Shown here: positions 1-15,886 of the stretch, piece by piece
How the letters are laid out: each line of letters begins with the position of its first letter
Numbering within the stretch: position 1 is the stretch's first letter
Assembly: GCA_017432075.1 (NCBI GenBank)
Contig: JAFRJV010000142.1
Span: 1 to 32,624 of the forward strand
Source: Mogibacterium sp.
GTDB lineage: Bacteria; Bacillota; Clostridia; Peptostreptococcales; Anaerovoracaceae
Length of the DNA stretch: 32,624 nt
Reading direction: 5' to 3'
Notes under the pieces: generated by a model
The model's database searches: none
What the model saw: only the letters and a program-made list of their open reading frames with translations
What the model was told of the DNA's origin: nothing
Position numbers and translations under genes: made by a program

Positions 1-2516
1 CCGATTATCTCCCTCATCCTGCGTGTCGTTTCAATGCCGTCCATTTCAGGCATCTTCCAGTCGACGAGTATCAGATTGTAAGGATCACGCCTTGCATGGC
101 GGAGCTTCACCTTTTCTATGGCTTCAGGTCCGGAATAAGCGATCTCAGCGGCTATTCCGGCTTTTTCGAGTATCAGCTTTGCATGTTCGCAGGCGACCGG
201 ATCATCATCGACCACCAGCACGGTCATTTCATCAGGACGTACAACGATTTCAGTATCTGCGTTCTTATGATCGGCGGCATTGAGCAGGGTGACAGTAACA
301 TAGAAAGTAGAGCCAACGCCCTTTTCACTCTCCACTTCGATGCTGCCGTTCATCATCTCGACAATGCTCTTGGTGATAGCCATTCCGAGACCTGAGCTGC
401 CGTATTTGTTAGTCATCGATGAGTCTTCCTGGGTGAACGTTTCAAACAGCTTAGGCAGGTAGTCTTTGCTCATTCCTATGCCTGTATCGGCTATGGTGAA
501 GCGCAGAGTCGACTGTTTCTCAAACTTTGCGATTCTTTCGACCGTGAGATCCACCTTACCTCCCTCAGGCGTGAACTTGACAGCGTTGCCGAGTATGTTT
601 ATAAGTACCTGGCGAAGTTTCATCTTATCGCCGACATAGTAGTGGTCAACATCTCCGATTATATGGCATTGATAGTCGAGTCCCTTGTCGGCACACTGGC
701 CGCTGAACATCGTATTTACCGTCTCCAGGAGTTCCGAGAACGGGAACTCTTCGTTTTTAAGTATCATGCGTCCTGATTCGATGCGTGACATGTCGAGAAT
801 ATCGTTGATGAGGTGCAGAAGGTGCTCTGCCGATGCTCCAATCTTTTCCAGATACTCTCTTGTCTTTTCCGGAATATCCGGATCATTCAGGGCTATGTTG
901 TCAAGACCGATGATAGCGTTCATCGGCGTCCTTATCTCATGGCTCATGTTGGAGAGGAATGCCGTCTTGGCTTTGTTGGCCTGCTCGGCGCTCTCAAGAG
1001 CGTCCGTCAGCAGCTGTCTCTGCTCGAGTTCGCTCTTTGTCTCATCATTGATATCCGCGAAGCATGCTCCGACCGTATGTACAAGATGGTCGTCACGCTG
1101 ATCCGGATGACGGACGCCGGCAAACTTGACGGCCTCCCAGGATTCCTTTCCGTTCACATTGATCATGTAGCGGTACGAAATGATCAGATGATCCTCCAGA
1201 CCTTTCCGGATGTTGTCAGGCTGTATGAAATTCAGGAATTCCTCCCTGTAAGGCTCTTTTACGTAAGCATTGCAGTAGTCCGTAACAGACTTAAGGTATT
1301 TGAACCTCTCGCCCTGTTTGAAGCCCGGCAGGTCCTGACGCGCCTGATAGCAGATGCCGTCATCCTTATCAAGCTCCAGATAGTAAACGCTCCGGTAGTC
1401 AGATGAGAGAGCCCGTATCATGCGGTCCTGCTGCTCTCCCTGGGCCCTCTCGGCAAGCAGCTCCTCCTGAATGGCAAGGCGGTGTTCCATCTCTTCCTGC
1501 CTGACTCTCGCAGCGGCCTGTGCAGCCTCATGGTCAGCCATGGCTTTTGCATTCTTGCGGTTCTGCCTGAGTATGTATCCGAACATAAGCACAAGAGCCA
1601 GTACCGTAAGCAGCGACTGTATGGTGCTTCTGATTATAGTGCCTTCTGTTATCTCGCTGATCTGATCGCTTATGTACGATTCTCTGATCAGATAAGTAAG
1701 CAGCCAGTCGGTACCATCAACAGGCACATAAGCGAGTGTTTCTTTTCTGTCATTATATGAGAATGATGCCTCGCCTCTTTCTCTCCCGGCAAAGTCCTCT
1801 TTTATCTTTTCCAGTGAATAACCTTTGTCAAATTCAGCTTGCTCAAGAGCGCTCAGAAGATTATCTTCGCTTGCATAGCCACCCAAAACCGCGTTGCTGA
1901 GCGGATAGCCATCTTCCGTATAAATGTTGCAGAAAGTCGCTGAATCCTCTCCCGAATCCATCGATACACCGTTGAGCATGCTTTCCATACCCATTTCCAT
2001 AAAGCAGACCAGAAGCTTATCATCCTGGAAAGCTCTAGGAGATATAGGCACCGCTATGACAACAGTCTTTTCCTCGCTCTTCATGTTGAGGATGGATATG
2101 TCAGGCTCGGTCATGTTTTTGTAGTCGAACGAGTACCTGTCTATCTCATCTGATGGCCCGCTGGATGTGTAAACAATGCCGCTCTCACCCACAAATGCGA
2201 AGCGCTCCAGATCATAAAGAGCCTTGATCCTCTTCTGATAAGCCTGTCGATGCTCCTCGTCGCTCAGGTCTTCATCAGTCATGAGATTGACCGCCTTCTC
2301 GATGGTCGCGATTTTACCCGAAAGATTTGAAGCCACTACCTGCTCGCGCCTGCCGGCAAGCTCATCCAGGTACAGAAGGCTCACCTTGTGCACGGCTTTT
2401 TCAGTGTCTTCGCTTGCAGCACGTCCCATCCAGAGCGTTCCTGCGATCAATATCAGAAGTACGACCGCTATACCGGCAGCCACAACCGGAAAAATATTTT
2501 TCTTTTTATATTCCAT
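1..2516 (-). CDS. Membrane hybrid sensor histidine kinase, C-terminus cut by window edge
   Basis: This gene encodes a membrane sensor kinase that would autophosphorylate on His and pass phosphate to its own receiver domain. About 838 residues are visible, and the reading frame is open to base 1. Residues 10-30 form a first membrane helix. An extracytoplasmic sensor region of about 250 residues follows, then a second helix near 290-310, a coiled stretch, and a PAS-like segment. The HisKA motif NMSHEIRTPMN has its His at residue 526. The ATPase domain shows the N box (NILGNAVKFTPEGG), DTGIGM and GSSGLGMAI. A receiver domain follows with the phospho-acceptor Asp at about 819 in LVDWKMPEMDG, where the sequence runs out. 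A second receiver or HPt could lie outside. The ATG at 2516 has a GGAGG site just upstream and lies 21 bases after the preceding REC-GGDEF-EAL gene, so co-transcription is likely. Confidence 0.93.
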   Translation of the reverse strand, partial: MEYKKKNIFPVVAAGIAVVLLILIAGTLWMGRAASEDTEKAVHKVSLLYLDELAGRREQVVASNLSGKIATIEKAVNLMTDEDLSDEEHRQAYQKRIKALYDLERFAFVGESGIVYTSSGPSDEIDRYSFDYKNMTEPDISILNMKSEEKTVVIAVPISPRAFQDDKLLVCFMEMGMESMLNGVSMDSGEDSATFCNIYTEDGYPLSNAVLGGYASEDNLLSALEQAEFDKGYSLEKIKEDFAGRERGEASFSYNDRKETLAYVPVDGTDWLLTYLIRESYISDQISEITEGTIIRSTIQSLLTVLALVLMFGYILRQNRKNAKAMADHEAAQAAARVRQEEMEHRLAIQEELLAERAQGEQQDRMIRALSSDYRSVYYLELDKDDGICYQARQDLPGFKQGERFKYLKSVTDYCNAYVKEPYREEFLNFIQPDNIRKGLEDHLIISYRYMINVNGKESWEAVKFAGVRHPDQRDDHLVHTVGACFADINDETKSELEQRQLLTDALESAEQANKAKTAFLSNMSHEIRTPMNAIIGLDNIALNDPDIPEKTREYLEKIGASAEHLLHLINDILDMSRIESGRMILKNEEFPFSELLETVNTMFSGQCADKGLDYQCHIIGDVDHYYVGDKMKLRQVLINILGNAVKFTPEGGKVDLTVERIAKFEKQSTLRFTIADTGIGMSKDYLPKLFETFTQEDSSMTNKYGSSGLGMAITKSIVEMMNGSIEVESEKGVGSTFYVTVTLLNAADHKNADTEIVVRPDEMTVLVVDDDPVACEHAKLILEKAGIAAEIAYSGPEAIEKVKLRHARRDPYNLILVDWKMPEMDGIETTRRMREII

Positions 2517-2537
2517 ACCGGTTATCCTCCTTACAGA

Positions 2538-5500
2538 CTAAACTGCACTATCATGCAGCTCGTTTTCAGAGCCGAACACCGCGCATCCTCTGCGGCCACT
2601 CTTCTTTACAGTGTAAAGCGCGCGGTCAGCATCGCCGAAGATATCACCCTGAGGGTTTTCACGGTCTGAAAAAGCGATGCCCACGCTCAGAGAAACTGAA
2701 GGCAGATCATCATCAGACTGCTGCAGCAGCTCATTGACATGATTCATCTTGCTGATAACGAGCTGTTTCATCGAGCTGTTGACACGGGTCATGATCACGG
2801 CGAATTCGTCTCCGCCTATGCGGCAGAGCACGTCCACAGAGCGGAAGCTTCCCTTCAGAAGCTCTGCCACCCTCTGCAGCACACGGTCTCCGACTGCGTG
2901 CCCGTATGTATCGTTGACCTCTTTGAAGTAGTCCACATCTATGAGGATAAGCGCCATATGCTTTTTATCGACACTTTCCATCATCAGATCATAAGCTCCC
3001 CGGTTGAAAAGTCCCGTGAGAGCATCATGTGACGCCTCATGGCGCAGCCTCTCACGCGCCTCGATATTTTCTTTAAGTATCTGATTATATGTTCTGGTGA
3101 CGAAGCGCAGCTCCTCTGCTCCTGTCGGAGGTATCATCTCCTGCTTTCTCATAAGGCGTACCATATCGGACAGCGGCTTGCGTATCATTGAAGTGATCAA
3201 AGTCACCATTCCGAACACTATCAGCAGGAACAGTATGCTCAGCCATGTCTGCAGATTTACGAGAACGGACAGCTTTGCCGAAGACCTCTCGAGCTCGCGG
3301 CTCGATGACTGGATCAGTGTCTGCGTGCAGAGGCCGACATTCTCCCTTATTCGGTCTTTATAATGCATATAATTGTTATCGAACACCAGGGTCTCGGCTT
3401 CTTTTCTCAGCTGAGCAGCACTCATGCCGCGTTCCGCCTTTGTCAGCTGCAGTCCTGCTATGTTCGCAGGCACTTCGCTCATGTCGTACTCTTCAGCTTC
3501 GAGGATAAGCCTCATGGCCCGGTTCTCATACTCTACAAGCTCGTTTGAGAGCGCGAGCGCGGCATTGAGACTGTCTATGGCGATGCTGTCTTCCTCACCA
3601 AGAAGGTTCTCAAGACTCTCAACAGCCTTGTCCCTTCTCCTGGTAACTTCGATTTCTTCTATGAAATCCTCGAGATATCCCATCTCACCTGTCACCACGA
3701 AGCAGCGAACTCTGTCAGTCAGATAGTCAGAGCCTGCCTCCATATCTGTGGCGGCCCTCTGCGCTTCGATATATCTGTCGCTGGCTCTCTCCATCTGGTC
3801 ATAGCCCTTGCTGACAGCGATATCTGAAATGATAAGGGCTACAGCAGCTATCAATGCAAGTATCGAGAACACCACCGTGGCGGTTTTGAGCTTCAGTGCG
3901 CCCCGCTCCTTAGGCAGTTCTTCCTGATCATCAGGCACCGTAACAGGATCGATCTCAGTGATCGTATTCCTCTCTATAAGAGTCTTTTTAAATGCCGGTT
4001 CATCAGGAGATTCCTTCTTCTGCAGTATGAACGGCTCAAATTCAGACGCAGGCACAGGTTTTGAGAAAAAGTAGCCCTGTACTATGTCGCAGCCGAGATC
4101 CTTCAGGGCCCTGAGCTGTTCACCGGTCTCGACTCCCTCGGCTATTACAGGAACCGACAGGTAGTCAGCCAGTCCTATTATTACCTCGAGCATGTGCGTG
4201 CTGCCGCCCTCTTTAAATGCGCTTCTTATGAACTGCATATCAAGCTTCAGGGCATCGATAGGCAGTGCAGAGATCATGTTCAGCGAGGAGTAGCCCGTTC
4301 CGAAGTCATCCATCTCGATCTGGAATCCGAGTTCTCTGAGCCTGTGCGCAGTTTCGATTATCTGCTCAGGGTCCTGGGTATAGGCAGACTCAGTAACTTC
4401 AAGCAGCAGATCGTGCCCTGTCAGCCCGTATTTCCCGACTATGCCGGTCAGGGTATCCACGATGCCCGGGTCATACATATCTATACGCGATACGTTGACC
4501 GAGACCGGGATCGAATAATGGAGTCTGCGCTTCCACTCGCTTACCTGGCGGGCTGCTTCCTCCCACACGTAGTGGTCGAGCTGCTGTATCAGTCCATTGT
4601 CTTCAAACAGCGGAATGAACGCACCCGGGCTTATCATGCCCAGTTCAGGATGTATCCATCTGACAAGCGCTTCTGTGCTTGTCAGTACAGGAGTATCAGG
4701 CCTTACGTCAAACTTAGGCTGATAATATACCTGGAACTGCTTCTCTCTTATAGCAGCCGGGAACGCTTCTATCAGCTGTTCATTGTATATCTGTTTTTTA
4801 TGCAGACCGTCATCGTAGATTCCGACCGTTTTTGCAAAGGTGCCCTTTACAGAGTCAGCGGCCATTTTCGCACGGTCAAATCTTCTCTCTATATCTATGC
4901 TCTTATCTGCGCACTCATATACACCCATGCGCAGTCTTATCCTGTTATCTGATGAACTCTCTGCGGTCAGGATCTTTGTTATCTCATCGAGCAAAGCCCC
5001 GGGGTCTTCCATATGCGGGCAATAAAGGAGGAATGTATCAGCTTCCTTCCTGCACGCAAGTCCTCCATGCGCTTCAGTCGTCCCGAGGAGCTGCTGCCCT
5101 ATTACCCGCAGCACATCATCGCCGTAGGCCTTGCCGTAGCGCTCATTTACCATATGGAAGTGGTCCACGTCGATAAGTATGGCATCCATCTCATCATCTT
5201 TGTGATAGCTGTCATACTGTTCCGCGTAGCGGTAAAAGAACTCTTTATTATACAGACCGGTCAGACCATCCTTTTCAGTCGACTGAATGATATCTCTGTC
5301 CTCAGACAGCTCTATGGTACGCAGCACTCTCGCGCGCACCACATCGACAGCAGGGTACGGCTTCGGGATAAAATCCGCAGCACCCAGCCTGAGACTCTCG
5401 ACTTCTGTATCCCTCTCCGCGGTCATTACAATGACAGGGATATGTGACAGCAGCTTGTCACCCTTGGCCTCCCTCAGCACATCCATGCCCGACATTTCAG

Positions 5501-5708
5501 GCATGAGAATGTCAAGAAGCACCAGGGAGAGAGTTTCCCTGTTCTGCCGCATCGTTTCAAGTGTCCTGACCCCGTCCTCAGCAAACATCACATCATAGTC
5601 GTCGCTGAGCATAGCGCCGAGTATCTCCCGGTTGATCATCTCATCGTCGGCTATCAGTATCTGTCTTTTGCCGTTCACAGAGTGGAACACTTTGTGACTC
5701 TTCAGCAT
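2538..5708 (-). CDS. REC-GGDEF(degenerate)-EAL-TM-sensor-TM-GGDEF cyclic-di-GMP turnover protein
   Basis: This 1056-residue protein joins what are normally two proteins. Residues 15-130 are a receiver domain with Asp66 in LLDILMPEMSG. Residues 145-295 are a GGDEF fold whose signature is degenerate (CRKEADTF at 219-226), so it is probably inactive. Residues 305-560 are an EAL phosphodiesterase. Its catalytic set looks complete: E346 in EAL, N405, E437, D467-D468 in DDFGTGYSS, K488, E524 and E527 in EGVE, and Q544. A membrane helix (608-630), an extracytoplasmic helical region (631-820), a second helix (822-843) and a HAMP-like linker follow. The C-terminal diguanylate cyclase has an intact GGDEF at 965-969 and an RxxD inhibitory site (RSVD, 956-959). 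The protein could therefore both make and degrade c-di-GMP. The ATG follows AAAGGAG and lies 30 bases after the hybrid kinase gene. I found no internal ribosome binding site and start at the junction near residue 600. Confidence 0.95.
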   Translation of the reverse strand: MLKSHKVFHSVNGKRQILIADDEMINREILGAMLSDDYDVMFAEDGVRTLETMRQNRETLSLVLLDILMPEMSGMDVLREAKGDKLLSHIPVIVMTAERDTEVESLRLGAADFIPKPYPAVDVVRARVLRTIELSEDRDIIQSTEKDGLTGLYNKEFFYRYAEQYDSYHKDDEMDAILIDVDHFHMVNERYGKAYGDDVLRVIGQQLLGTTEAHGGLACRKEADTFLLYCPHMEDPGALLDEITKILTAESSSDNRIRLRMGVYECADKSIDIERRFDRAKMAADSVKGTFAKTVGIYDDGLHKKQIYNEQLIEAFPAAIREKQFQVYYQPKFDVRPDTPVLTSTEALVRWIHPELGMISPGAFIPLFEDNGLIQQLDHYVWEEAARQVSEWKRRLHYSIPVSVNVSRIDMYDPGIVDTLTGIVGKYGLTGHDLLLEVTESAYTQDPEQIIETAHRLRELGFQIEMDDFGTGYSSLNMISALPIDALKLDMQFIRSAFKEGGSTHMLEVIIGLADYLSVPVIAEGVETGEQLRALKDLGCDIVQGYFFSKPVPASEFEPFILQKKESPDEPAFKKTLIERNTITEIDPVTVPDDQEELPKERGALKLKTATVVFSILALIAAVALIISDIAVSKGYDQMERASDRYIEAQRAATDMEAGSDYLTDRVRCFVVTGEMGYLEDFIEEIEVTRRRDKAVESLENLLGEEDSIAIDSLNAALALSNELVEYENRAMRLILEAEEYDMSEVPANIAGLQLTKAERGMSAAQLRKEAETLVFDNNYMHYKDRIRENVGLCTQTLIQSSSRELERSSAKLSVLVNLQTWLSILFLLIVFGMVTLITSMIRKPLSDMVRLMRKQEMIPPTGAEELRFVTRTYNQILKENIEARERLRHEASHDALTGLFNRGAYDLMMESVDKKHMALILIDVDYFKEVNDTYGHAVGDRVLQRVAELLKGSFRSVDVLCRIGGDEFAVIMTRVNSSMKQLVISKMNHVNELLQQSDDDLPSVSLSVGIAFSDRENPQGDIFGDADRALYTVKKSGRRGCAVFGSENELHDSAV

Positions 5709-5738
5709 TTTGACTACGCTCCTTTGCCTCTTCGTTAT

Positions 5739-8700
5739 CTACTTAAGTATTTCAGACAGTGTTTCAAGCATTTTAGGGATATCGTACGGCTTTGCCAGGT
5801 GTCCGTTCATACCGGCAGCCAGAGCAAGCCTGCGGTCTTCTTCAAACGCATTGGCCGTGACCGCTATGATAGGAATGCCCGCCTTATCAGCGTCATCAAG
5901 CTTCCTGATGGCGGAAGCCGCCTCATATCCGTTCATATGAGGCATCTGTATATCCATGAGTATCACATCGTATGTGCCGGCAGGCGACTCCTTCATCTTT
6001 TCGACCGCGATTCTGCCGTCTGAAGCGATATCGATCTCAAAGCCAACCTCTGTGAGGATAGCCTCGGCTATCTGCTGGTTCATCTCGTTGTCTTCGGCCA
6101 GCAGGATACGCTTGCCCGCAAAGTCGATAATCTCCTCAGAGTCATCTTCGGCCTCTTGCTTAATGAACGGCTCAGCCAGCACGCGGTTCAGCTCTGACAT
6201 GAACAGCGGCTTGGAGCAGAAAGCAGTGACGCCTGCCTCCTTTGCCTCTTCTTCTATATCCGCCCAGTCGTAAGCTGTAAGGATTATCACAGGAGCGTTA
6301 TCGCCCGCTATCTTTCGTATCCTTCGTACAGTCTCAACACCGTTCATGTCAGGCATCTGCCAGTCAATAATATATATCCGGAAAGGATCGCCCTGGTCGA
6401 GTGCCTGTTTTGTTCTGATCACAGCTTCCTTGCCGTAATTCGTCCAGTCGGCGCGCATGCCCATATCGCTGAGCATATTGCATATCGATAGGCATGTATT
6501 TGTGTCATCGTCAGCAACAAGTGCCCGCAGCCCCTGTATCTCAGGGATCACCTCGGCCTTTACAGGATGGCTGCCCACCTTGCACGGTATCGTCACGATG
6601 AATTCTGTTCCCATTCCCTCTCTGCTGTTGACCGAAATGGTGCCGCCCATCATGTCGACTATGTTTTTGGTGATGGCCATTCCGAGGCCTGTACCCTGTA
6701 TGCCGCTTACGGTGCTTGTTTTCTCTCTTGTGAACGCGTCAAAGATATTCTTCTGGAACTCCTCGCTCATTCCTATTCCGCTGTCTTTGATCCGGAATTC
6801 GAATGAGGTCATGTCATCTGAAAGAGAAGGTTTTTCGATCACCCTGAAGCTTATGGATCCGCCGCTCGGAGTAAACTTTATAGCGTTCGAAAGAATGTTA
6901 AGGAACACCTGATTGAGGCGCAGTTTGTCGGTTATGATGTCTTCATGTATGACATCCTGAGTATCTATAAACAGGTCGAGCTGCTTTGCAGAAATGTTGG
7001 CCTGGATTATCAGGTGCAGCTCGTGTATCAGCTCAGGCAGATGGACCTCGGCTTCTTCAAGAGTCATCTTGCCGCTTTCGATGCGGCTCATGTCGAGCAC
7101 GTCATTGACGAGGCTCAGCAGATGCTGGCTCGAGATTGAGATCTTGCTGAGGTAGTCCTCCACCTGTTCTTTGTTATCTATATGTGAGGCTGCAAGCGCG
7201 GTGAAGCCCACGATCGCGTTCATCGGCGTACGGATGTCGTGTGACATATTGTTGAGGAACGAAGTCTTGGCTCGGTTCGCGTGCTCGGCCGCGGTAAGCG
7301 CGTTGGAGAGAGCTTCCCTCTTTGTCATTTCATCCCTGACAATCTCCGTAACATCGCTGTGATATCCTCTGAGCAGCTGCTGCGTTCCGTCCTGTGTCGC
7401 AGTGCCTCCGCAGCGGACCCACAGAGTTCCCCACTCCGGATGCTCCCAGCGGTAGGTGTTCTCCGCGAACTGCCCGGCCAGCATCTCCGCTACGTGGTTC
7501 TGCACCGAAGGGATATCCGCCTCTATGATACGTGAATACCAGCCAGCGTATACTTCCTCTTCGGTCAGCTCCTGCCCGGTAATGCCCAGGAGCTCTTTCA
7601 TCTTTTCGTTGCCGCGCATCCTCGGCTCCTTGCCGTCCTCGAGCACGATATGCCACATGCCAAAACCCGCCTCGGCGATTATATCCTCGGCGTCTGCCAG
7701 CTCCTTCTTGCTGTATTCGAGCTCTCTGGCGTTCTCCTCCTGGCGTTTCTGCTCGAGTCTTACCTCTGTGGTGTCGGTCTTGAGCACTATGCAGTACTCA
7801 GATTCCGGGTCTACAGAGTAGAAGTCAAAGCGCTTGTAGAATACGCCCTCAGGCATCTCGACCTCGATATCCACTGAATACGGCTCTCTCACCTGCAGCA
7901 TGCGGAATACGGTATCGAGGCTCATCGCCTCCCTTATCTGCTGCCTGTATTCCTCATCGCCCTTAAGCGCCGGTATTATCTGGGATTCGATATAATTTAT
8001 GTATGATCCCGATCTTTCCTTCGGGAAGATATTTCCGTGTTCTATGAGATTGCTGTCACCTATCGCGACGTCGTATCTGTCGCGGGCGATATAAGCAACG
8101 AGGTCGAACTGCTTCGCGAGTATCTTGCCTCTTATGGTTGACAGCAGTTTTTCAGGATTGTTTGGCTCCTCTTTAATAAAGACGATCATGTCATCCGTTA
8201 CAGGATGGCGCGTCACATTGGTCGTGATCTTTACATAAGAAACAGAATCATCAGGCAGCCTTGAATACAGCACCATGCTCGATGAGACCTCTCCGTCAAG
8301 ATACGCCCTGATAAGCTTTTCTGAGCTCAGCGCATTCAGGAATTCGCCCTGCTCCTCCTCTATAGGAAAATAGACCGCGCGCTTTTTTAGCGCGTCCGCG
8401 AATGACAGCCCCGGTTCGGCGATGGAGAAATCCGCAGAGCCCTTCACATCCTCGATCCTGTCTTTTGTCAGGTTCGCCTGCAGCAGAACCAGCGTATCCT
8501 CATCCAGCTGGTAGAAGTTCTCACCCAGGTTCATGTAGATGCTCTGAAGCTGATCCTCATACCTTTTGAGCTTATCCACATTGGCATATGTGCAGTAGAC
8601 ATAGTGCTCGCCCCATTCATCTATGAAGGCGTAATGCGCGTTGCACCATACCTCATTGCCCTTTTCGCTTATCTTGCGCAGTGTGATGCCTTTTGAACCT

Positions 8701-9305
8701 GCTTCCGCGTCGCGGTTCTTAAGGATTCTGAGGACTTTCTCTCTGTCATCCCTGTGCGTGCTGTTTATATAGCCGTTTCCGTCCATAAAGCTGCAGGCGT
8801 CATGCAGGCTTTTGCACTCCATCAGATCGCAGAAGGCCTGTGTCGCGTACACTGTGGTAACGCTCCCGTCATCATTCTGCTTTATCAGGCAGGCTATGTT
8901 ATTCATCTGCGAAATTGCCCGCATAAAATGAACCCGGGACTCCTGCTCATCAAAATCCGCGATATCCGTTACTACGTATCCTATCTGTCCTTCAGGAAGT
9001 CCGGGCAGAGGTTCCATGTGCACGTGAAGGCTGATATGCGGGATATACGTGGAGAAAGCCTCAGGCTCGCCATCCAGGCTTTTATCCATCATGCTCAGTG
9101 TATAGTCGTCTATGAGCCATTTCTCGACCGCAAGCGCCCCAAGGTAATCGTTCTTTCCGTATATGGCGGTGTAATCCTTCGAGAAGTGCTTATTTCCATA
9201 AACGATCCTGTAATCGATACGGTTCCCGTCGCTATCTCTCAGCACTTCATAAATGATGATCGAGAGCGGGAAGTTGTCATATATTATCTCTTCATATTTA
9301 TCCAT
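5739..9305 (-). CDS. Cytosolic PAS hybrid histidine kinase with two receiver domains
   Basis: This 1188-residue phosphorelay kinase has no obvious membrane helix, so it should act in the cytoplasm. Its N-terminal 660 residues look like several PAS-type sensing modules (roughly 130-250, 260-390 and 540-660). The HisKA box NNMSHDIRTPMNAIVG has the phospho-accepting His at 689. The ATPase domain carries NILSNAIKFTPSGG, DSGIGM and GTGLGMAITK. Two receivers follow, with acceptor Asp at about 981 (IIDWQMPDMNG) and about 1118 (MDIQMPHMNG). The ATG at 9305 was chosen because AGGTG lies 9 bases upstream. The in-frame GTG at 9317 lacks a good site. The gene lies 46 bases after the HPt gene and 30 bases before the c-di-GMP protein, so the likely flow is kinase, internal receivers, HPt, then output receiver. 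The input signal is unknown. Confidence 0.95.
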   Translation of the reverse strand: MDKYEEIIYDNFPLSIIIYEVLRDSDGNRIDYRIVYGNKHFSKDYTAIYGKNDYLGALAVEKWLIDDYTLSMMDKSLDGEPEAFSTYIPHISLHVHMEPLPGLPEGQIGYVVTDIADFDEQESRVHFMRAISQMNNIACLIKQNDDGSVTTVYATQAFCDLMECKSLHDACSFMDGNGYINSTHRDDREKVLRILKNRDAEAGSKGITLRKISEKGNEVWCNAHYAFIDEWGEHYVYCTYANVDKLKRYEDQLQSIYMNLGENFYQLDEDTLVLLQANLTKDRIEDVKGSADFSIAEPGLSFADALKKRAVYFPIEEEQGEFLNALSSEKLIRAYLDGEVSSSMVLYSRLPDDSVSYVKITTNVTRHPVTDDMIVFIKEEPNNPEKLLSTIRGKILAKQFDLVAYIARDRYDVAIGDSNLIEHGNIFPKERSGSYINYIESQIIPALKGDEEYRQQIREAMSLDTVFRMLQVREPYSVDIEVEMPEGVFYKRFDFYSVDPESEYCIVLKTDTTEVRLEQKRQEENARELEYSKKELADAEDIIAEAGFGMWHIVLEDGKEPRMRGNEKMKELLGITGQELTEEEVYAGWYSRIIEADIPSVQNHVAEMLAGQFAENTYRWEHPEWGTLWVRCGGTATQDGTQQLLRGYHSDVTEIVRDEMTKREALSNALTAAEHANRAKTSFLNNMSHDIRTPMNAIVGFTALAASHIDNKEQVEDYLSKISISSQHLLSLVNDVLDMSRIESGKMTLEEAEVHLPELIHELHLIIQANISAKQLDLFIDTQDVIHEDIITDKLRLNQVFLNILSNAIKFTPSGGSISFRVIEKPSLSDDMTSFEFRIKDSGIGMSEEFQKNIFDAFTREKTSTVSGIQGTGLGMAITKNIVDMMGGTISVNSREGMGTEFIVTIPCKVGSHPVKAEVIPEIQGLRALVADDDTNTCLSICNMLSDMGMRADWTNYGKEAVIRTKQALDQGDPFRIYIIDWQMPDMNGVETVRRIRKIAGDNAPVIILTAYDWADIEEEAKEAGVTAFCSKPLFMSELNRVLAEPFIKQEAEDDSEEIIDFAGKRILLAEDNEMNQQIAEAILTEVGFEIDIASDGRIAVEKMKESPAGTYDVILMDIQMPHMNGYEAASAIRKLDDADKAGIPIIAVTANAFEEDRRLALAAGMNGHLAKPYDIPKMLETLSEILK

Positions 9306-9351
9306 ATTGCTGTACACCTGCTGTTATTGTGTGCGCACCCCTGCTGTCTTT

Positions 9352-9693
9352 TCAGCTGAGAAGTGCTCTGTATTTGCCGAGCTCAGCGTCTATCCTTTCG
9401 AGAAGCCCTGAGTAGTCGATGTCATTTTTTGCTCTGAGCTCCTCAGTGATCTCTATGACAGGCTCTGCCAGTGATGTGAGCGCTACATTGGACAGTACGC
9501 CCTTCAGAGCATGCGCCCTTTCGAAACCTTCATCAAGGTCCCCCTTCTGAACAGCATCTTTCAGCTTTTCGAACCCATCATCAGCAAGAGCCATACTGAC
9601 CATTCTGAGATAAAAATCTTCCTTGCCAAGGCATCTCGTAAGTCCTTCATCGGTATTCGCACCAAGCGATTTAAGATTGTCGATCGTAAGCAT
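9352..9693 (-). CDS. HPt-domain phosphotransfer protein
   Basis: This 113-residue protein is little more than one histidine phosphotransfer domain. The acceptor His lies in ERAHALKGVLSNVALTSLAE, which matches the HPt helix consensus (AHxLKGxxxNxG/A). Such proteins shuttle phosphate between the receiver of a hybrid kinase and that of an output protein. The neighbours supply both sides: a hybrid kinase with two receivers directly downstream, then a REC-GGDEF-EAL protein. A clear AAGGAG site sits 7 bases before the ATG. It is 35 bases after the BTAD regulator gene and probably belongs to the same transcript. The role assignment is firm at domain level, but the actual partners are inferred from position. 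Confidence 0.9.
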   Translation of the reverse strand: MLTIDNLKSLGANTDEGLTRCLGKEDFYLRMVSMALADDGFEKLKDAVQKGDLDEGFERAHALKGVLSNVALTSLAEPVIEITEELRAKNDIDYSGLLERIDAELGKYRALLS

Positions 9694-9728
9694 TGTGTTT
9701 CTCCTTGTAATTAATTATCAGTCTCAGG

Positions 9729-10931
9729 TCAGCGGTTTGATACAATAATGTTGCTGACCGAATAGCTGAGGCTTGTTCGTTGTCCTTCACGGATGAAGCG
9801 CGAGCTGATTCGCTTCGACACTACAGAACAGTCCTCCTCAGTAGTGTTTATCAGAAGTACAAGATACTGGCCTTTTCCATATCTGGTAACGGTATCAGTA
9901 TGTCTTACACTTTCTATGATCGTTTGTCTGAGTCTTTCAGAAAGCTCTTCAAGGCGGCTTCCCTCACGCATCGGATTGCCCTTGCTGTCAAGTATTGTGC
10001 AGAGCATCAGGAATATCTTCTCTCCTGATCTTTCCATCATACGCTCGGTCATCCTATATATCTCCTGGAACACAGGAAGCGAGCAATAGTATCCTTCACG
10101 CGGGTAATCCTCAGGATTACTTATCTTCCTCTGAATTTCCTCAAGAGATTCATGTCCAACAACGAGCTTGAGACCGATACGGTTTATGAACTCTCTTACA
10201 TAAATGTTGGCACGGCCGCCGTACTCCTTGACGTACATATCGACAGTCTTCCTGTAGAAGCTTTCAGTTCTGTCGAATTTTCCCAGTCTCCCGAGCGCTT
10301 CCAGGGTCAGTATCTCCCATTCAGAGAAAGGATCCACCTTGCTGGCATAAGTGCTCACATCAAGGAGCTGTTTGTATTTATGCGCATCTCTCAGCATATC
10401 AGTAAGCTCGATCATACAGTCTGAAAAGATTTCCCTGTATCTTTCTGCTTCCTGGGCGCTCCATACACTGGATTCGTTACCGGCCAGGAATCTCCCTGCG
10501 TACATATAGCACGCATCCGTCAGCATGTCGATCTTCTGCTCATTGTCTTCACAGTTCATAGCATCGTCGAAAGCTGTTTCGAACTCCGCAGCATCTTCTA
10601 TGACTTTTATATCGTCACACCAGAAATAGACGCCCTTTTTCTTTACAACATACTGGCTGTCCGGAAGTCCGAGCGCTCTGAGCCTTTTGCGCAGATTGTA
10701 TATTATGTTTCTTATTGAATGTGAAACATCGTCAACATCACGGTCCCCGAACAAAGCCGCTTTGGCAAGATCCCTCGACAGCCCCTGCTTTCTGAAATGA
10801 AGCAGCAGCTGCAGAAGCTGGACCATCTGCGATTCATTCTGATTTCCGAATGAGAGTTCGGAGTCTTTGTATCTGATCGAAAAGCCTCCGAAAGTTTTCA
10901 CATGGATAGTATATTCTTCGTTGCCGGTCAT
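9729..10931 (-). CDS. SARP/BTAD-type transcriptional regulator with degenerate GGDEF tail
   Basis: This 400-residue cytosolic regulator has three parts. Residues 8-105 resemble an OmpR/SARP winged helix (start HVKTFGGFSIRY; SIRNIIYNLRKRLRALG as the recognition region). Residues 110-255 are an all-helical BTAD domain (for example FSEWEILTLEALGRLGKFD). Residues 280-398 look like a GGDEF fold. In it, the segment VRHTDTVTRYGKGQYLVLL sits where a cyclase has DxxxRxGGDEFxxLL, so the catalytic residues are lost. This tail could bind a nucleotide or simply dimerise. The gene starts 14 bases after pilT, and its GGAGG site overlaps the pilT stop region, so the two are translationally close. It probably regulates the surrounding surface-machine operon, though that target is inferred. 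Confidence 0.88.
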   Translation of the reverse strand: MTGNEEYTIHVKTFGGFSIRYKDSELSFGNQNESQMVQLLQLLLHFRKQGLSRDLAKAALFGDRDVDDVSHSIRNIIYNLRKRLRALGLPDSQYVVKKKGVYFWCDDIKVIEDAAEFETAFDDAMNCEDNEQKIDMLTDACYMYAGRFLAGNESSVWSAQEAERYREIFSDCMIELTDMLRDAHKYKQLLDVSTYASKVDPFSEWEILTLEALGRLGKFDRTESFYRKTVDMYVKEYGGRANIYVREFINRIGLKLVVGHESLEEIQRKISNPEDYPREGYYCSLPVFQEIYRMTERMMERSGEKIFLMLCTILDSKGNPMREGSRLEELSERLRQTIIESVRHTDTVTRYGKGQYLVLLINTTEEDCSVVSKRISSRFIREGQRTSLSYSVSNIIVSNR

Positions 10932-10945
10932 GGTATCACATCCTC

Positions 10946-12004
10946 CTACGCTCCGACTTTCTTCACCATGAACTCGTAGTTATTGCATGAAGAAAGAAGT
11001 GTGTTCTTGCTGATCCGGCCTTTATTGTACAGATCGAGAAGGCTTGAATCCATGGTGACCATCCCGTCAGCAGATGCTGCCTGCATAGCTGACTCGAGCT
11101 GGTGAAGCTTGCCTTCTCTTATCATGTTGTGTATGGCCGGAGTCGACTTCATTACCTCGAATACCGGGATCAGATGCCCGTCAACAGATGTAACGAGCTG
11201 CTGGCATACAACGCCCTTTATCAGCTGGGCAAGCTGTCCTCTTACCTGCACCTGCTGGTTTGCAGGGAATACATCCACGATCCTGTTGATCGTGTTTGCC
11301 GCACTGGATGTATGGAGAGTACTGAAAAGCAGCACTCCTGTCTCAGCCGCGGTGATGGCAGATGATATCGTATCAAAATCTCTCATTTCTCCGAGCAGAA
11401 TGACATCCGGACTCTCTCTGAGAGCGGATCTCAGAGACTCCAGATAACCCGGAGTATCGATAAATATCTCGCGCTGGCTTACAATGCTCTTGTTATGCGA
11501 GTGCAGATACTCAAGCGGATCCTCCATCGTAATGATGTGGGCTTCGCGGCTTCTGTTGATCCTGTCGATCATGCAAGCCAGAGTAGTCGACTTGCCGGAG
11601 CCTGCTGCTCCTGTGACCAGCACAAGCCCGGTCTTGTTATCAGCAAGGGAGAGCACGTTCTCAGGTATGCCGAGAAGTGCCGGATCAGGCACGCCGAATT
11701 TGATGACTCTTATTACGGCAGCCAGCGAGCCTCTCTGTCTGAACACATTCACTCTGAATCTTCCGAGATCTCTGATCGAAAAAGAGAAATCATCATCATT
11801 GTTCATTTCAAGGTTTGTCTTGGCACGGCGGCCAGTCACATATATCTCATCGATCACCGCATTGATGTCATCAGGCTTCAGGATGCTGTCACCGTGTCTG
11901 TCCTGCGTTCCTTTTATCTTATACGTCACAGGGATACCGGCGATGATAAAAATGTCTGATGCCCCTTTCTGTATCGCTGCTGTCAGTATTTCATTGAGGT
12001 TCAT
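10946..12004 (-). CDS. pilT: PilT-type pilus retraction ATPase
   Basis: This is a 352-residue hexameric ATPase of the type IV pilus/type II secretion family, acting at the inner face of the membrane. It has the Walker A motif GAAGSGKST (132-140), an Asp box (ITMEDPLEYLH, about 158-168), an atypical Walker B (DVILLGEMRD, 200-209), and a His box (STLHTSSA). The C-terminal AIHNMIRE (290-297) matches the AIRNLIRE signature of PilT rather than PilB. Its length and its short N-terminal domain (from ASDIFIIAGIP) also fit PilT/PilU. No long N-terminal extension or zinc-binding tetracysteine typical of PilB is present. It lies 37 bases after a small pilin-like gene and 14 bases before the BTAD regulator. 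No partner extension ATPase is visible in this window. Confidence 0.93.
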   Translation of the reverse strand: MNLNEILTAAIQKGASDIFIIAGIPVTYKIKGTQDRHGDSILKPDDINAVIDEIYVTGRRAKTNLEMNNDDDFSFSIRDLGRFRVNVFRQRGSLAAVIRVIKFGVPDPALLGIPENVLSLADNKTGLVLVTGAAGSGKSTTLACMIDRINRSREAHIITMEDPLEYLHSHNKSIVSQREIFIDTPGYLESLRSALRESPDVILLGEMRDFDTISSAITAAETGVLLFSTLHTSSAANTINRIVDVFPANQQVQVRGQLAQLIKGVVCQQLVTSVDGHLIPVFEVMKSTPAIHNMIREGKLHQLESAMQAASADGMVTMDSSLLDLYNKGRISKNTLLSSCNNYEFMVKKVGA

Positions 12005-12041
12005 TATCTTTTCCTTCTTTCTCTGATATATGCCGCCGCTG

Positions 12042-12443
12042 TCAGTTGCCCGGCCATATGCTGTTCATAGGATCGGATGCGTTCCAGATCTTTGTAAGCT
12101 TCCATTTTGTCACTTCATATCTTCCGGATCCGGCCTGCCGCGTCACAGCGACTTCAAGTCTGTAGCCGCCGTCCTCAGCGGTGAACTCATATCCGTTTCC
12201 GGTCTCCGTTACACCGTTCATATGATCGGCCGGATTTGAGGTGCCGGCTGATTCCGTATAACTCAGGAACTCTTCCCCCTGAGCTTCAAGCCCGTATCTG
12301 ATCTTTGTTATATCAGCAAATCTCTTTGCCATGATCACGTCTGCATTCGATGTGGCTACAGTGAGTACTGCCAGTGTTGTTATGACCATCGTCACTATCA
12401 CAAGAAAGATGGCGATCGGACCGAGTCTGGTTTTATGAGTCAT
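12042..12443 (-). CDS. Small pilin-like membrane protein
   Basis: This 133-residue protein has a short positive N-terminus (MTHKTRLG), one long hydrophobic helix (about 9-30), and then a soluble domain with an amphipathic start and beta-rich C-terminal half. That shape fits a pseudopilin or minor pilin. However, the residue after the candidate Gly is Pro, and there is no Glu at position +5, so it is not a canonical prepilin signal. Its ATG overlaps the stop of the upstream gene (ATGA), and GGAGG sits 7 bases ahead. Placement between PilC and PilT supports a structural role. I do not recognise the family. An unrelated single-pass membrane protein remains possible. Confidence 0.7.
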   Translation of the reverse strand: MTHKTRLGPIAIFLVIVTMVITTLAVLTVATSNADVIMAKRFADITKIRYGLEAQGEEFLSYTESAGTSNPADHMNGVTETGNGYEFTAEDGGYRLEVAVTRQAGSGRYEVTKWKLTKIWNASDPMNSIWPGN

Positions 12444-12907
12444 GATCCCACCTCCTCTGCAGTAAAGTGGCTTCCGGCACTGAGATCGTATAGCTTCCCT
12501 TCATGCTGTCCCGGAACGCAGTAATATACTTCGATGCTGTCCGTGGTATATACACCGGACTCTCTCTCCTCTTCAGCCCTGTGAAGGACTATACAGAAGT
12601 CCTTCCCCTTCAGGTTACCGTCAGTATCGAACACGATGTCAAGCGAGCCGCCGGAAACATCTGCTACGGCTGACTGCACATTGTCCATGCCTTTGAGCTT
12701 TTCCGCAAGGAGAGACAGATCATGCTCTGATGATGCCGCCTCAGCAGTGCTCTGGGCCATCATAACAGCCTGAGTCAGATGCCTTGCTTCTATGGTCCTG
12801 GCTCTGCTCATCACAAATACCTGCGTGATCATAACGATCACCAGTATCAGCAGTATGAAGAGCCCGAGGAGCTCAACTGTAAATGCAATACTTCTCTTAT
12901 TGTTCAT
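12440..12907 (-). CDS. Small pilin-like membrane protein with FTVELL motif
   Basis: This 155-residue protein begins MNNKRSIAFTVELLGLF and continues into one hydrophobic helix ending near residue 32. The AFTVE stretch resembles the FTLIE start of mature pilins, with Glu near +5, but the residue before the cleavage point would be Ile rather than Gly. The rest is a soluble domain of about 120 residues with no recognised motif. The ribosome site is weak (AAAGAG), and only 3 bases separate it from the upstream gene, so translational coupling is likely. It overlaps the next gene by 4 bases. Best reading: a minor pilin or pseudopilin of the PilC/PilT machine, inferred from context and topology. Confidence 0.72.
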   Translation of the reverse strand: MNNKRSIAFTVELLGLFILLILVIVMITQVFVMSRARTIEARHLTQAVMMAQSTAEAASSEHDLSLLAEKLKGMDNVQSAVADVSGGSLDIVFDTDGNLKGKDFCIVLHRAEEERESGVYTTDSIEVYYCVPGQHEGKLYDLSAGSHFTAEEVGS

Positions 12908-12910
12908 CTC

Positions 12911-13354
12911 TTATCTCTTTGTATTGACTACAGAAACACCTTCATCTGTTGTAACTGACAAAAGCCCGTCGTTTCCGAGTTCAGGAACGAATGTATTTGT
13001 AGTACCTATCTCAAGAGCAGTCTCAGGATCAAGCGGGAGCCCTGCTTCAACATACTCTTCCATCAGTTTTCCTTCTATCATGAATATGCGGTGCTCATAT
13101 CCGTCGCTGCTCCTGATCACGAGGCAGTCCGTTCCGGATATGTTTTCGACCGCTACTTCACTGGTATTGCTGTCTTTGACACAATTGACCACATAAGAGC
13201 CGACAGCTCTGGAGTTGCTGTTCATGTTCTGAACTTCCGAAGCGTGCTGATATCCTCTTGCGGCGAACACAACAAGACTGAGGATGACCACAAACAGAAC
13301 TGTCACCGTGATAGTCGATATTATGTCTCCTATGCCTCTTTTGCTCTCAAGCAT
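12911..13354 (-). CDS. Small pilin-like membrane protein (possibly DUF4860-like)
   Basis: This 147-residue protein starts MLESKRGIGDIISTITV and has one membrane helix (about 13-32), followed by a soluble beta-rich domain. A basic KRG before a hydrophobic stretch resembles a prepilin leader, but Glu at +5 is absent. Small proteins of this shape, annotated DUF4860 in some Clostridia, sit beside type II secretion F proteins. I suggest that match only tentatively from memory of the family. AAGGA lies 10 bases before the ATG, and only one base separates it from the upstream stop, so it is almost certainly in the pilC operon. Confidence 0.7.
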   Translation of the reverse strand: MLESKRGIGDIISTITVTVLFVVILSLVVFAARGYQHASEVQNMNSNSRAVGSYVVNCVKDSNTSEVAVENISGTDCLVIRSSDGYEHRIFMIEGKLMEEYVEAGLPLDPETALEIGTTNTFVPELGNDGLLSVTTDEGVSVVNTKR

Positions 13355-13355
13355 A

Positions 13356-13673
13356 TTATCTGTCCTTCTTATATATCACTTTGACTTCAGGAGGAAGATT
13401 CTCTGCATAAGGTATATACACGATCTTGTAATCCTCCATGTTGACTGCCAGTCCGTAGTTATCCACCAGATAATCCAGACTTTCAGGATATGCACCCTCG
13501 ATAACGTAGCACTGAAGCGCACGCCTTGATACGGTATCCTTTATAGCCTGTGCCTGCTCCTCAAAGCTGTCCTCTGCAGCCTTTTCAGCCCATACGAAGA
13601 CGGCTGCGATCAATATGACCGCAATAATGACGATCGTCACTATCAATCTTCTGTAGTGGTTACTTCTTTCCAT
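13356..13673 (-). CDS. Small pilin-like membrane protein
   Basis: From the ATG at 13673 this is a 105-residue protein with a basic start (MERSNHYRRL), one membrane helix (about 10-28), and a soluble part. The soluble segment AIKDTVSRRALQCYVIEGAY continues with PESLDYLVDNYGL. Alternating helix and a GxYP step of this kind recalls the start of the type II pseudopilin globular domain (as in GspG). The ATG at 13673 has GAGGAG 7 bases upstream. The in-frame ATG at 13688 has no site, so the shorter form is preferred. It lies 24 bases after pilC. No canonical G/FTLIE signal exists, so processing by a prepilin peptidase is uncertain. Confidence 0.75.
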   Translation of the reverse strand: MERSNHYRRLIVTIVIIAVILIAAVFVWAEKAAEDSFEEQAQAIKDTVSRRALQCYVIEGAYPESLDYLVDNYGLAVNMEDYKIVYIPYAENLPPEVKVIYKKDR

Positions 13674-13697
13674 ACCGGAGCTCCTCATCTGAAACGT

Positions 13698-14762: not shown

Positions 14763-14793
14763 TAGTCTAAGCTCCTTTCATTTATATGCATTT

Positions 14794-15750
14794 TCAATAC
14801 TGGAATACGTCCATGTAATTGGAACCATCACCAATGAAACGGCTGTCAGATCCATTGGCAGAAAAAGTAAGATCGAGGCGGTTCCATTCATCTTCGTGAA
14901 CCTCGAATTCAACGGCGACCCATCCGGACTCCTTTGTGTAGTACATGTTCCACGCATGATAGAGATCACCGTTTTCACCTACATATCCGAAAATGATCTT
15001 TGTCGGAATACCATGGCTCCTGAGCATTGCCGCCGCAAGGGACGCATAATCAATACAGATACCCTTGCCGGTATTCATGGTCTCATCAGGGTCAGGGATA
15101 TATCCTGACTGTACGGTCTCTGCCTTCTTTTTATCGTATTTAACTTTTTTGCATACGAATTTGAAGACATTTGTAATGAAGTCGTTGGCGTCTGTCGACT
15201 CCGCAGCGAGTTCATCCGCCTTGAGCACACATGCTGACTCCTTGGTATAGTCTGCATACTGACTCGGCCTGAGGAAAGGATCGAATTCATCCTCCAGTTC
15301 CACATATACCGATGTAGCATAAAGCTCGCTGTACTTGGTATCGGCAATGTTCTTCATGACCTTGATCGTATAGTTGCCGTCCCCGAGCTGGAACGGATAG
15401 ATCTGGTCTTTTCCGGTAACGACATCGTAGGTGTAGACCTCATCGTCCTTGAACACCTGGACTTTGATTTTTTTATCCGACACGCAGTGGATACCGAAAA
15501 AGCCTTTGTCGCTCCTTGAGGTATCTACAAGCACTTCGTCATTGCCATAAGACTCCTCTTCATGGAAATTAGCACCCCTGAATTTAGGTACTTTATATCT
15601 TTCGACAGTCTCATCAGCCGGAGCCTCGGCCTCTGCAGCCGTTCCGCCGGCTGCCTCACTGCTTCCGCATGCAGGAAAACACGCAAAAATGGAAGAAATC
15701 AGCAGGCAGATGATCAGATATTTTGCTGTCTTTTTCATCTTATGCGGCAC
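14794..15750 (-). CDS. Transglutaminase-like lipoprotein
   Basis: This is a 318-residue exported protein. The GTG at 15750 is the likely start because GGAGG lies 6 bases ahead. An in-frame ATG four codons later is also possible. A positive start and hydrophobic helix end in FPAC followed by GSSEAAGG, so Cys28 would be the lipid-attached residue and the protein would sit on the outer face of the membrane. The C-terminal half is a transglutaminase/protease-like fold with the expected triad: Cys232 in GKGICIDYASLAAAMLRSHG, His265 in YHAWNMYY, and Asp near 293 in NRLDLTF. Such enzymes act on amide bonds, often in cell-wall or surface proteins. The substrate here is unknown. It sits 31 bases before pilC and may be the first gene of that operon, possibly modifying or anchoring the surface machine. 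Confidence 0.88.
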   Translation of the reverse strand: MPHKMKKTAKYLIICLLISSIFACFPACGSSEAAGGTAAEAEAPADETVERYKVPKFRGANFHEEESYGNDEVLVDTSRSDKGFFGIHCVSDKKIKVQVFKDDEVYTYDVVTGKDQIYPFQLGDGNYTIKVMKNIADTKYSELYATSVYVELEDEFDPFLRPSQYADYTKESACVLKADELAAESTDANDFITNVFKFVCKKVKYDKKKAETVQSGYIPDPDETMNTGKGICIDYASLAAAMLRSHGIPTKIIFGYVGENGDLYHAWNMYYTKESGWVAVEFEVHEDEWNRLDLTFSANGSDSRFIGDGSNYMDVFQY

Positions 15751-15794
15751 TTCATTCCTCCATTTCAGATAATTCGTATAGATATCTAATTTTA

Positions 15795-15818
15795 GCAATT
15801 ACTGCCTCATATTGTAAA
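15795..15818 (-). promoter_or_regulatory. Possible promoter for the transglutaminase-pilC operon
   Basis: On the minus strand TTTACA (15818-15813) is followed after 18 bases by TAAAAT (15794-15789), about 40 bases before the GTG start. It follows the glgA terminator, so a new transcript is expected here. The match is reasonable but the stretch is AT-rich. Confidence 0.4.
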
Positions 15819-15851: not shown

Positions 15852-15886
15852 AAAAGAGACCCATTAAATGAGTCTCTTTTTTCGAT
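15852..15886 (-). terminator. Terminator after glgA
   Basis: The arms AAAAGAGAC (15852-15860) and GTCTCTTTT (15872-15880) pair perfectly, with a further CAT/ATG pair inside the loop. Read on the minus strand it ends transcripts from glgA. On the plus strand it has an even longer T run, so it may work both ways. It separates the glycogen genes from the long pilus-signalling cluster. Confidence 0.8.

Follow-up and report, generated by a model that had tools for sequence, protein, structure and literature searches.

What kind of machine is encoded by a small set of pilus-like genes whose only motor is a PilT-type ATPase, and does it work under the control of cyclic diguanylate (c-di-GMP)? The question is raised by a contig of Mogibacterium sp. 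(Clostridia; Anaerovoracaceae; assembly GCA_017432075.1, contig JAFRJV010000142.1). The window analysed here is this entire contig (C63, 32624 bp), part of a draft genome (label G000) that is 83% complete. Twelve co-directional open reading frames (ORFs) occupy the minus strand of the contig from position 15750 to the contig end, with spacings of -4 to 46 bases (Table 1). They encode a transglutaminase-like lipoprotein (TGlip), a PilC platform protein, four pilin-like proteins (pil1 to pil4), the PilT-type ATPase, a BTAD regulator with a GGDEF domain, an HPt phosphotransfer protein, a hybrid kinase (HK1), a large protein with REC, GGDEF and EAL domains, and a second hybrid kinase (HK2). Our preferred answer, to which we give an even chance of being right, is that the pilus-like cassette forms a reduced type IV filament machine; a regulator that senses c-di-GMP would control its expression, and a phosphorelay would set the c-di-GMP level here.

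A six-gene core widespread in Clostridia

The window PilT was searched in 197 genomes of the family, 102 of which gave a match at E 1e-30 or better. Some of the listed PilT places (98) were fetched and, together with the window and two downstream stretches, make up 101 family loci, which were annotated by profiles built from the window proteins. These comprise 68 loci with an intact core (PilC-pil1-pil2-pil3-pil4-PilT, in this order and co-directional), 18 canonical PilB-PilT loci, 13 truncated or atypical loci and the 2 downstream pieces. Beyond the family, DUF4860, the domain of pil2, was matched in 42 of 391 class genomes, that of the window among them, and the core was found in 12 of 20 fetched class loci and in 31 of 80 named loci. 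In total, the six-gene core is intact in 111 fetched loci with 109 distinct PilT sequences (two pairs of loci are duplicates) from at least nine families, these counts being lower bounds because the script can miss a small gene beneath an overlapping ORF, as happened for locus L161. That six of the twelve genes keep the same order in 111 loci is beyond chance. Carriers include [Clostridium] asparagiforme DSM 15981, Pseudobutyrivibrio ruminis, Tyzzerella sp. An114 and a metagenome-assembled genome of Blautia, and the cassette is, as judged from sequence, widespread in gut and rumen Clostridia. A literature search found no paper naming DUF4860.

The lipoprotein gene accompanies the core, lying nearby in 103 of the 111 core loci and immediately upstream on the same strand in 91. 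Its predicted catalytic triad is retained almost throughout the 101 aligned rows (Cys in 100, His in 100 and Asp in 99), and a lipobox-like Cys was recognized by a crude pattern in 50.

The four small proteins between PilC and PilT are divergent. Pfam gave no match for pil1, pil3 or pil4, and profile searches of the PDB sequences with pil1, pil2 and pil4 returned no pilin; the pil3 profile matched type IV pilins weakly (E 0.04-0.7), a de novo protein scoring better (0.011). An alignment of 53 pil1 sequences has six invariant residues (C60, E64, P68, Y78, N97 and P100). The AlphaFold2 (AF2) model of pil1 (pLDDT 91.5) consists of a 56-residue N-terminal helix, a small helix and two strands, and that of pil2 (pLDDT 93.8) of a 54-residue N-terminal helix and an eight-strand head. 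Such a lollipop, i.e. a long N-terminal helix carrying a head, is the shape of pilins. The fourth, pil4, is putatively GspK/PilX-like. PilC scores under all NCBIfam cut-offs.

PilT as the only motor

The best PDB match of the cassette ATPase is PilT (E 1e-127), and we regard this motor as a true PilT on the strength of its sequence. The PilT tree places the cassette proteins within canonical PilT as a single clade of 45 rows (UFBoot 99, SH-aLRT 98). Inside this clade L206, L155 and L166 split first, and the remaining 42 make up a clade with 100/100 support. A PilB-type ATPase, taken as a full-profile T2SSE match, was absent from 27 of the 28 family genomes with cassette-type PilT, G000 included (the intact core was seen in 26 of the 28, one gene was unrecognized in G106 and PilT stood alone in G140). 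Another T2SSE protein, either of TadA size or fragmentary as judged by size only, is also present in 27 of the 28 family genomes; G135 (97% complete) has no T2SSE match over the curated cut-off besides the cassette PilT. Among 22 further cassette genomes, ten gave no PilB-type match. The cassette PilT is likewise the only T2SSE match in G341 (single contig, 100% complete), which also has no PilD-type match; its locus L161 holds the whole cassette, with pil4 at 9154-9633 and a BTAD gene directly after PilT. G341 is the cleanest genome in which to look at a PilT-only machine. Pseudobutyrivibrio ruminis AD2017 (L204) is another carrier of the cassette that gave neither a PilB-type nor a PilD-type match. 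Two loci, L206 and L167, have ORFs of ~561 amino acids upstream of the core that were at first suspected to be PilB; these were dropped, their sequences looking like those of an oligoendopeptidase F. The Pfam scan, run on the window proteins only, gave no match to PilM, PilN or PilO.

A conserved PilT without PilB would mean either that a PilT can power movement in the two directions or that the task of the machine is something other than pilus extension. No description of a PilT-only cassette was found in the titles and abstract openings of the literature on PilT, Lachnospiraceae and PilB absence.

Probable loss of prepilin processing

The PilD N-domain (PF06750) was detected in 40 of the 197 family genomes. 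It is present in 22 and absent in 59 of the 81 genomes with cassette-type PilT, a set defined by match strength (E 1e-103 or better, G056 excepted) and not by inspection of the core, and it was found in none of the five genomes searched in the window's genus (G000 and four congeners). The prepilin motif GxxxxE is absent from all four pilin-like proteins of the window; among the 111 core loci it occurs in pil3 in 17 and in pil2 in 3, with none in pil1 or pil4, and only 20 of these loci have any prepilin-motif gene within three genes. At least one GxxxxE ORF was found in 36 of 46 canonical loci. In pil3 the Glu is kept in 110 of the 111 loci and the Gly(-1) in 17.

Seven early-branching or order-variant loci (L206, L155, L166, L165, L168, L160 and L167, of which L160 and L167 are outside the PilT tree) all have a canonical-looking pil3 motif with G or A at position -1. 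A PilD-type match was obtained in six of these seven genomes vs 6 of 15 other cassette genomes. From this we infer that the cassette formed first and lost processing later, and the early-branching members that still have prepilin motifs offer a natural series for this loss. Genome G572 carries three cassettes (L153, L154 and L155), the early-branching L155 with prepilin motifs in pil2 and pil3 and the other two without.

The A24 peptidase of G000 is a short form without the PilD N-domain (L140 7098-7865, on contig C125), encoded beside truA and scpA/scpB. The idea that this gene marks a shared housekeeping locus was abandoned, the truA-scpA setting being unseen in L144, L143 and L091-L094 (the last four being short stretches); L144 gave just a 25% A24 match. 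A24 domains are also present in genomes without a PilT match, e.g. G002.

A BTAD regulator with a degenerate GGDEF domain

The link between the machine and c-di-GMP control, which had been proposed in a first-pass annotation of this DNA from the letters alone, is supported by the distribution of the BTAD regulator. A BTAD-GGDEF gene lies within four genes of the core in 33 of the 68 family core loci vs 0 of 18 canonical loci (a weak BTAD match in L066, to a REC protein, was excluded, reducing 34 to 33). At the level of genomes, a strong BTAD homologue was found in 44 of the 81 with cassette-type PilT vs 6 of 107 others (Fisher 2.4e-14), a count from hand-compiled genome lists that leaves out nine genomes with ambiguous PilT. 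In 35 of the 44 genomes the best BTAD match is at most 12 kb from the cassette PilT. More broadly, a GGDEF, EAL or BTAD gene occurs within five genes in 56 of the 111 core loci vs 3 of 44 canonical loci. In L050, where no core was recognized, a BTAD gene adjoins PilT.

The GGDEF motif of the window regulator is degenerate (GKGQY) and its RxxD site intact. Of 49 regulators, all 47 that were readable keep RxxD and none has an intact GGDEF motif; R343, D346 and Q355 are invariant in 26 aligned regulators, mostly 19-29% identical to that of the window. A degenerate GGDEF domain with RxxD is a trait of known c-di-GMP receptors, and the BTAD regulator has the sequence marks of an I-site-type effector in its dead GGDEF and its RxxD. 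In a large group of commensals, this BTAD-dead-GGDEF family is a candidate receptor of c-di-GMP. A literature search for the combination of BTAD-with-GGDEF and c-di-GMP found no paper.

Eight loci (L042, L045, L055, L173, L174, L176, L179 and L190) have an alternative control cassette upstream of the lipoprotein gene, with a transmembrane protein whose GGDEF is degenerate (GGNKF in most). One of its genes presumably encodes an ECF sigma factor, going by a motif recognized by eye. A membrane gene of the same set looks, by eye, like an anti-sigma factor.

Control by a c-di-GMP riboswitch was considered and set aside. The Rfam scan of the window gave no element at threshold, c-di-GMP riboswitches included, and of the two c-di-GMP-I aptamers in 16 cassette loci neither was seen leading into the cassette. 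The aptamer of L048 (17066-17162) stands just before a gene for an 809-amino-acid protein adjoining the lipoprotein gene, with DUF11-type repeats and an LPXTG-type anchor; the second is near the cassette in L177.

Phosphorelay genes

The phosphorelay was surveyed in 22 genomes of six genera, 13 with a close cassette (PilT at least 70% identical) and 9 without, every genus holding both kinds. HPt was found in 12 of the 13 close-cassette genomes vs 0 of the 9 congeners, and all 13 have REC-GGDEF-EAL at no less than 48% identity (two partial at contig ends) vs 0 of 9, its matches of 30-37% in G021 and G103 being uncounted. HPt is near the cassette PilT in 9 of the 12 HPt genomes, G000 included, and adjoins REC-GGDEF-EAL in G046, G117, G145, G098, G114, G135 and G017. 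Both genes thus co-occur with the cassette in the window's lineage even when not adjacent, in support of the annotation. BLAST of its halves indicated that the 1056-residue protein of the window corresponds to two genes, fused in swapped order, which stand apart yet adjacent in G046, G117, G145 and G156; fused orthologues (65-67% identity) occur on other contigs in G149, G169, G158 and G184.

The kinases are less constant. Neither HK1 nor HK2 was matched in the fetched stretches of G169 and G135, no genome-wide search having been made. Locus L171, whose contig begins inside a PilT 80% identical to that of the window, encodes a transmembrane GGDEF protein, HPt and a hybrid kinase with 39% identity to HK1, the only relative of the two kinases seen by the cassette of a close relative. 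In the distant cassettes L070 and L180, an HK1-like hybrid kinase (45% and 55%, respectively, over the C-terminal half) adjoins PilT on the opposite strand, and L070 additionally carries HPt and REC-GGDEF. By sequence, the phosphoryl residues appear in place (the HisKA motif, HPt His61 and REC Asp66, the last at the position predicted for it in the annotation). We consider the pair of HPt and EAL/GGDEF protein to be tied to the machine and to be a feature of the close-cassette lineage, judging from this co-occurrence, with the hybrid kinase recurring but not fixed.

The order of all twelve genes is not conserved, the run ending in the closest relatives after HPt (G169) or after the BTAD gene (G135). 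The description as a self-contained signal-to-surface module is thus supported only in part; that of a machine plus c-di-GMP control is supported by the genome comparisons. The term pilus-like machine understates the oddity of a set whose sole motor is PilT, which lacks PilB and a local PilD and whose pilins are mostly non-canonical.

The twelve-gene run in the window

Pfam matches along the run (transglutaminase-like, PilC/T2SSF, DUF4860, T2SSE, BTAD, HPt, two hybrid kinases and REC-GGDEF-EAL-GGDEF) and the ORFs agree with all twelve genes and domains named in the annotation, with some refinement. The gaps of 1-46 bases reported there are correct for the run except at pil3/pil4, the sole overlap (4 bases), and the 46-base gap presumes that HK1 starts at 9305, an alternative GTG lying upstream at 9317. 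HK2 has the expected HisKA, HATPase and REC domains and is incomplete at the contig end. The GGDEF labels were right for the C-terminal domain of the REC protein, which like its EAL domain appears intact by motif, and too generous for its first GGDEF (CRKEADTF) and for that of the BTAD regulator, both degenerate.

Internal terminators, which would have spoken for unrelated parts, were not seen: the scan found none between run genes on the minus strand, and the four further terminator-like matches on this strand within the run are all inside ORFs. In the scanned region (both strands), terminator-like matches are above chance (24 seen vs 12.3 expected) and promoter-like matches are not (15 seen vs 22.6 expected). 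Elsewhere in the window, a minus-strand ORF (19147-19731) fuses a helix-turn-helix with a desulfoferrodoxin-like domain and is a candidate redox-sensing regulator. The Peptidase S58 family is spread over two overlapping minus-strand ORFs (24411-25618), with a run of eight G near their junction, so that slippage or a sequencing error may explain the split.

Table 1. Positions of the run and of the sites upstream of it in the window.
Feature	Position	Strand	Evidence and remarks
Terminator-like hairpin	15852..15880	-	Lies between the run and a starch-synthase-like gene upstream of it
Promoter-like site	15789..15818	-	Best-scoring in scan, 10/12 matches, TG preceding second hexamer; just upstream of TGlip
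TGlip, transglutaminase-like lipoprotein	14794..15750	-	PF01841 1.4e-22; GTG start at 15750 preceded by GGAGG
PilC/GspF platform protein, short form, 354 aa	13698..14762	-	PF00482 9.3e-35
pil1, pilin-like	13356..13688	-	Motif QCYxxEGxYPxxxxYL; without prepilin motif
pil2, DUF4860 pilin-like	12911..13354	-	PF16152 3.6e-11
pil3, pilin-like	12440..12907	-	Glu(+5) kept, Gly(-1) not
pil4, pilin-like	12042..12443	-	Gly8 kept; AEE pattern in consensus
PilT-type ATPase, the cassette's only motor	10946..12004	-	TIGR01420 400 bits, cut-off 319
BTAD (SARP-like) regulator	9729..10931	-	PF03704 5.6e-07 (over cut-off); GGDEF 0.0034 (under cut-off)
HPt phosphotransfer protein	9352..9693	-	PF01627 1.4e-07; candidate His61
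HK1, PAS-HisKA-HATPase-REC-REC hybrid kinase	5739..9305	-	Pfam; no transmembrane-like segment in hydropathy scan
REC-GGDEF-EAL-TM-TM-GGDEF protein, 1056 residues (TM, transmembrane)	2538..5708	-	Pfam; TM-like 603-636 and 812-844
HK2, membrane hybrid kinase	1..2516	-	Pfam HisKA, HATPase, REC; TM-like 5-35, 292-313; cut by contig end

Proposed mechanism and alternative readings

As a reduced type IV filament machine, the cassette would work as follows. The hexameric PilT-family ATPase would turn the PilC platform, which would assemble and disassemble, or push and pull, a short membrane-anchored stack of the four pilin-like proteins, in which pil4 and pil3 would form the tip-like pair; one motor would thus serve both directions. 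The transglutaminase-like lipoprotein may act outside, on a client or on the cell wall. Expression would be set by the BTAD regulator, whose dead GGDEF domain would sense c-di-GMP via RxxD, and in this lineage hybrid kinase, HPt and the REC domain of the EAL/GGDEF protein would form a phosphorelay setting the c-di-GMP level. The set may have originated from one of the type IVa pilus (T4aP) kind that came to do without PilB and, mostly, without PilD and the prepilin motif.

Several observations weigh against this reading. The pilin fold is suggested by two AF2 models (pil1 and pil2) plus motifs. L165 and L168 are placed apart from the main cassette clade in the PilT tree, and four of the 13 truncated or atypical loci of the family (L043, which is close to where its contig starts, L050, L137 and L138) have PilT without a recognized core. 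G195 is the sole one of the 28 family genomes with a PilB-type full-profile match, and such a match is found elsewhere in the genome in 12 of the 22 further cassette genomes. With respect to processing, an A24 peptidase domain of any kind occurs in 181 of the 197 family genomes and in 108 of 108 of high quality, and the short A24 protein of G000 could process some subunits. The helix-border Gly of pil4 is kept in 110 of the 111 loci and, with the Glu retained in pil3, the two halves of the signal thus survive on separate subunits; G261 keeps the pil3 motif yet has no PilD match. No BTAD gene was seen in the fetched stretch of 35 of the 68 family core loci (some contigs being short), and in the 44 genomes the best BTAD match is on another contig in 8 and 17.6 kb away in one. 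Finally, kinship is allowed for in the co-occurrence counts by the within-genus design only.

The machine itself could be read in three other ways. A PilT-only machine might never extend a pilus: the retraction motor of type IV pili, having dispensed with PilB, PilD and prepilin cleavage, would pull on a short, uncleaved, membrane-anchored pilin-like stack coupled to the lipoprotein, as a force-generating or surface-sensing device of the envelope with output and expression tied to c-di-GMP through its dedicated receptor-regulator. We regard this as rather unlikely. A type II secretion system (T2SS)-like endopilus or ComG-like DNA-uptake piston, moving a secreted client or DNA through the wall, is unlikely in our view. 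It would fit the resemblance of the four pilin-like proteins to a G/H, J, I and K set, the single ATPase, a trait of T2SS and ComG, and the full-length match of PilC to ComGB (118 bits, though under the cut-off of 240), but the ATPase belongs to the PilT family (400 bits) and not to ComGA (121 bits, cut-off 300) or GspE. As for a client, some neighbours are large with surface-type domains: all seven scanned, which were picked by size and presence of a signal peptide, matched Ig-like, InlB-repeat, MBG, VWA, MucBP, DUF11 or similar domains. Large secreted neighbours are, however, not enriched (14 of 111 core vs 14 of 44 canonical loci), and the idea of adhesin neighbours as the client was dropped. 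Finally, the cassette could be a satellite pilin-PilT locus of an ordinary type IV pilus, with PilB and PilD supplied in trans. Six of the seven early-branching or order-variant genomes do have a PilD-type and five a PilB-type match elsewhere, and G195 and the [Clostridium] asparagiforme genome also hold PilB; we nevertheless find this quite improbable, given the 27 of 28 family genomes without PilB-type match, the complete genome G341 without any other T2SSE match or a PilD-type one, and the PilC that the cassette brings along.

A further doubt concerns the signalling genes, whose place next to the machine might be a coincidence of this single draft genome. In the fetched stretches of G169 and G135, the cassette indeed has neither HK1 nor HK2 nor the fused EAL/GGDEF gene beside it, and the four genomes with fused orthologues have them on other contigs. 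Coincidence is nonetheless hard to reconcile with the nearness of HPt to the cassette PilT, seen in nine genomes (G000 among them), with the split pair of transmembrane GGDEF and REC-GGDEF-EAL genes beside the cassette in G046, G117, G145 and G156, with the co-occurrence of 12/13 and 13/13 vs 0/9, or with the kinase next to PilT in the distant L070 and L180 (the former also with HPt and REC-GGDEF), and we hold it to be very unlikely.

Comparison with known systems

The cassette shares with the T4aP of monoderms a TIGR01420 PilT, a PilC platform and several pilin-like proteins, and differs in the lack of PilB, PilD and, mostly, the prepilin motif, with no PilM, PilN or PilO among the window proteins. 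From type IV pili of the Clostridioides type it differs in that PilT is its only motor, that neither PilB nor a local PilD is present and that most of its pilins are non-canonical. Excerpts of a review describe assembly by PilB as essential in all type IV filament families, unlike PilT (PMC6668835), and those of a second review list a prepilin peptidase, platform, extension ATPase and PilM, PilN and PilO as needed for assembly, with PilT dispensable for piliation in monoderms (PMC6916266). Gram-positive operons have been classed as pil, tad and com (PMC3244431, also in excerpt). A PilT-only set goes unmentioned in these excerpts of PMC3244431, PMC6668835 and PMC6916266. Against the generic model of an ATPase, a PilC-type platform and a pilin (PMC6668835), the cassette has the ATPase and the platform, together with putative pilins recognized by AF2 shape (pil1 and pil2) and motifs only.

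The Com (ComG) pilus likewise has one ATPase of ~350 amino acids, a short platform protein and a small gene set, whereas the cassette has a PilT (ComGA 121 bits vs a cut-off of 300), no canonical prepilin motif and its ATPase gene last in the core, not first as in comG. With the T2SS pseudopilus the cassette appears to share a tip-like set of minor pilins, with Glu5 on an I-like subunit and Gly without Glu5 on a K-like one; it differs in having no GspE or secretin among the window proteins and, in most members, no canonical cleavage site. The Tad assembly ATPase has been implicated in retraction too, without PilT (PMC6668835, in excerpt). No Tad genes are present in the window.

On the side of control, the regulator combines the DNA-binding and BTAD domains of SARP-type proteins with the degenerate GGDEF and RxxD of I-site effectors, and stands apart from SARP/BTAD regulators in that the BTAD-GGDEF combination forms one family tied to a pilus-like cassette.

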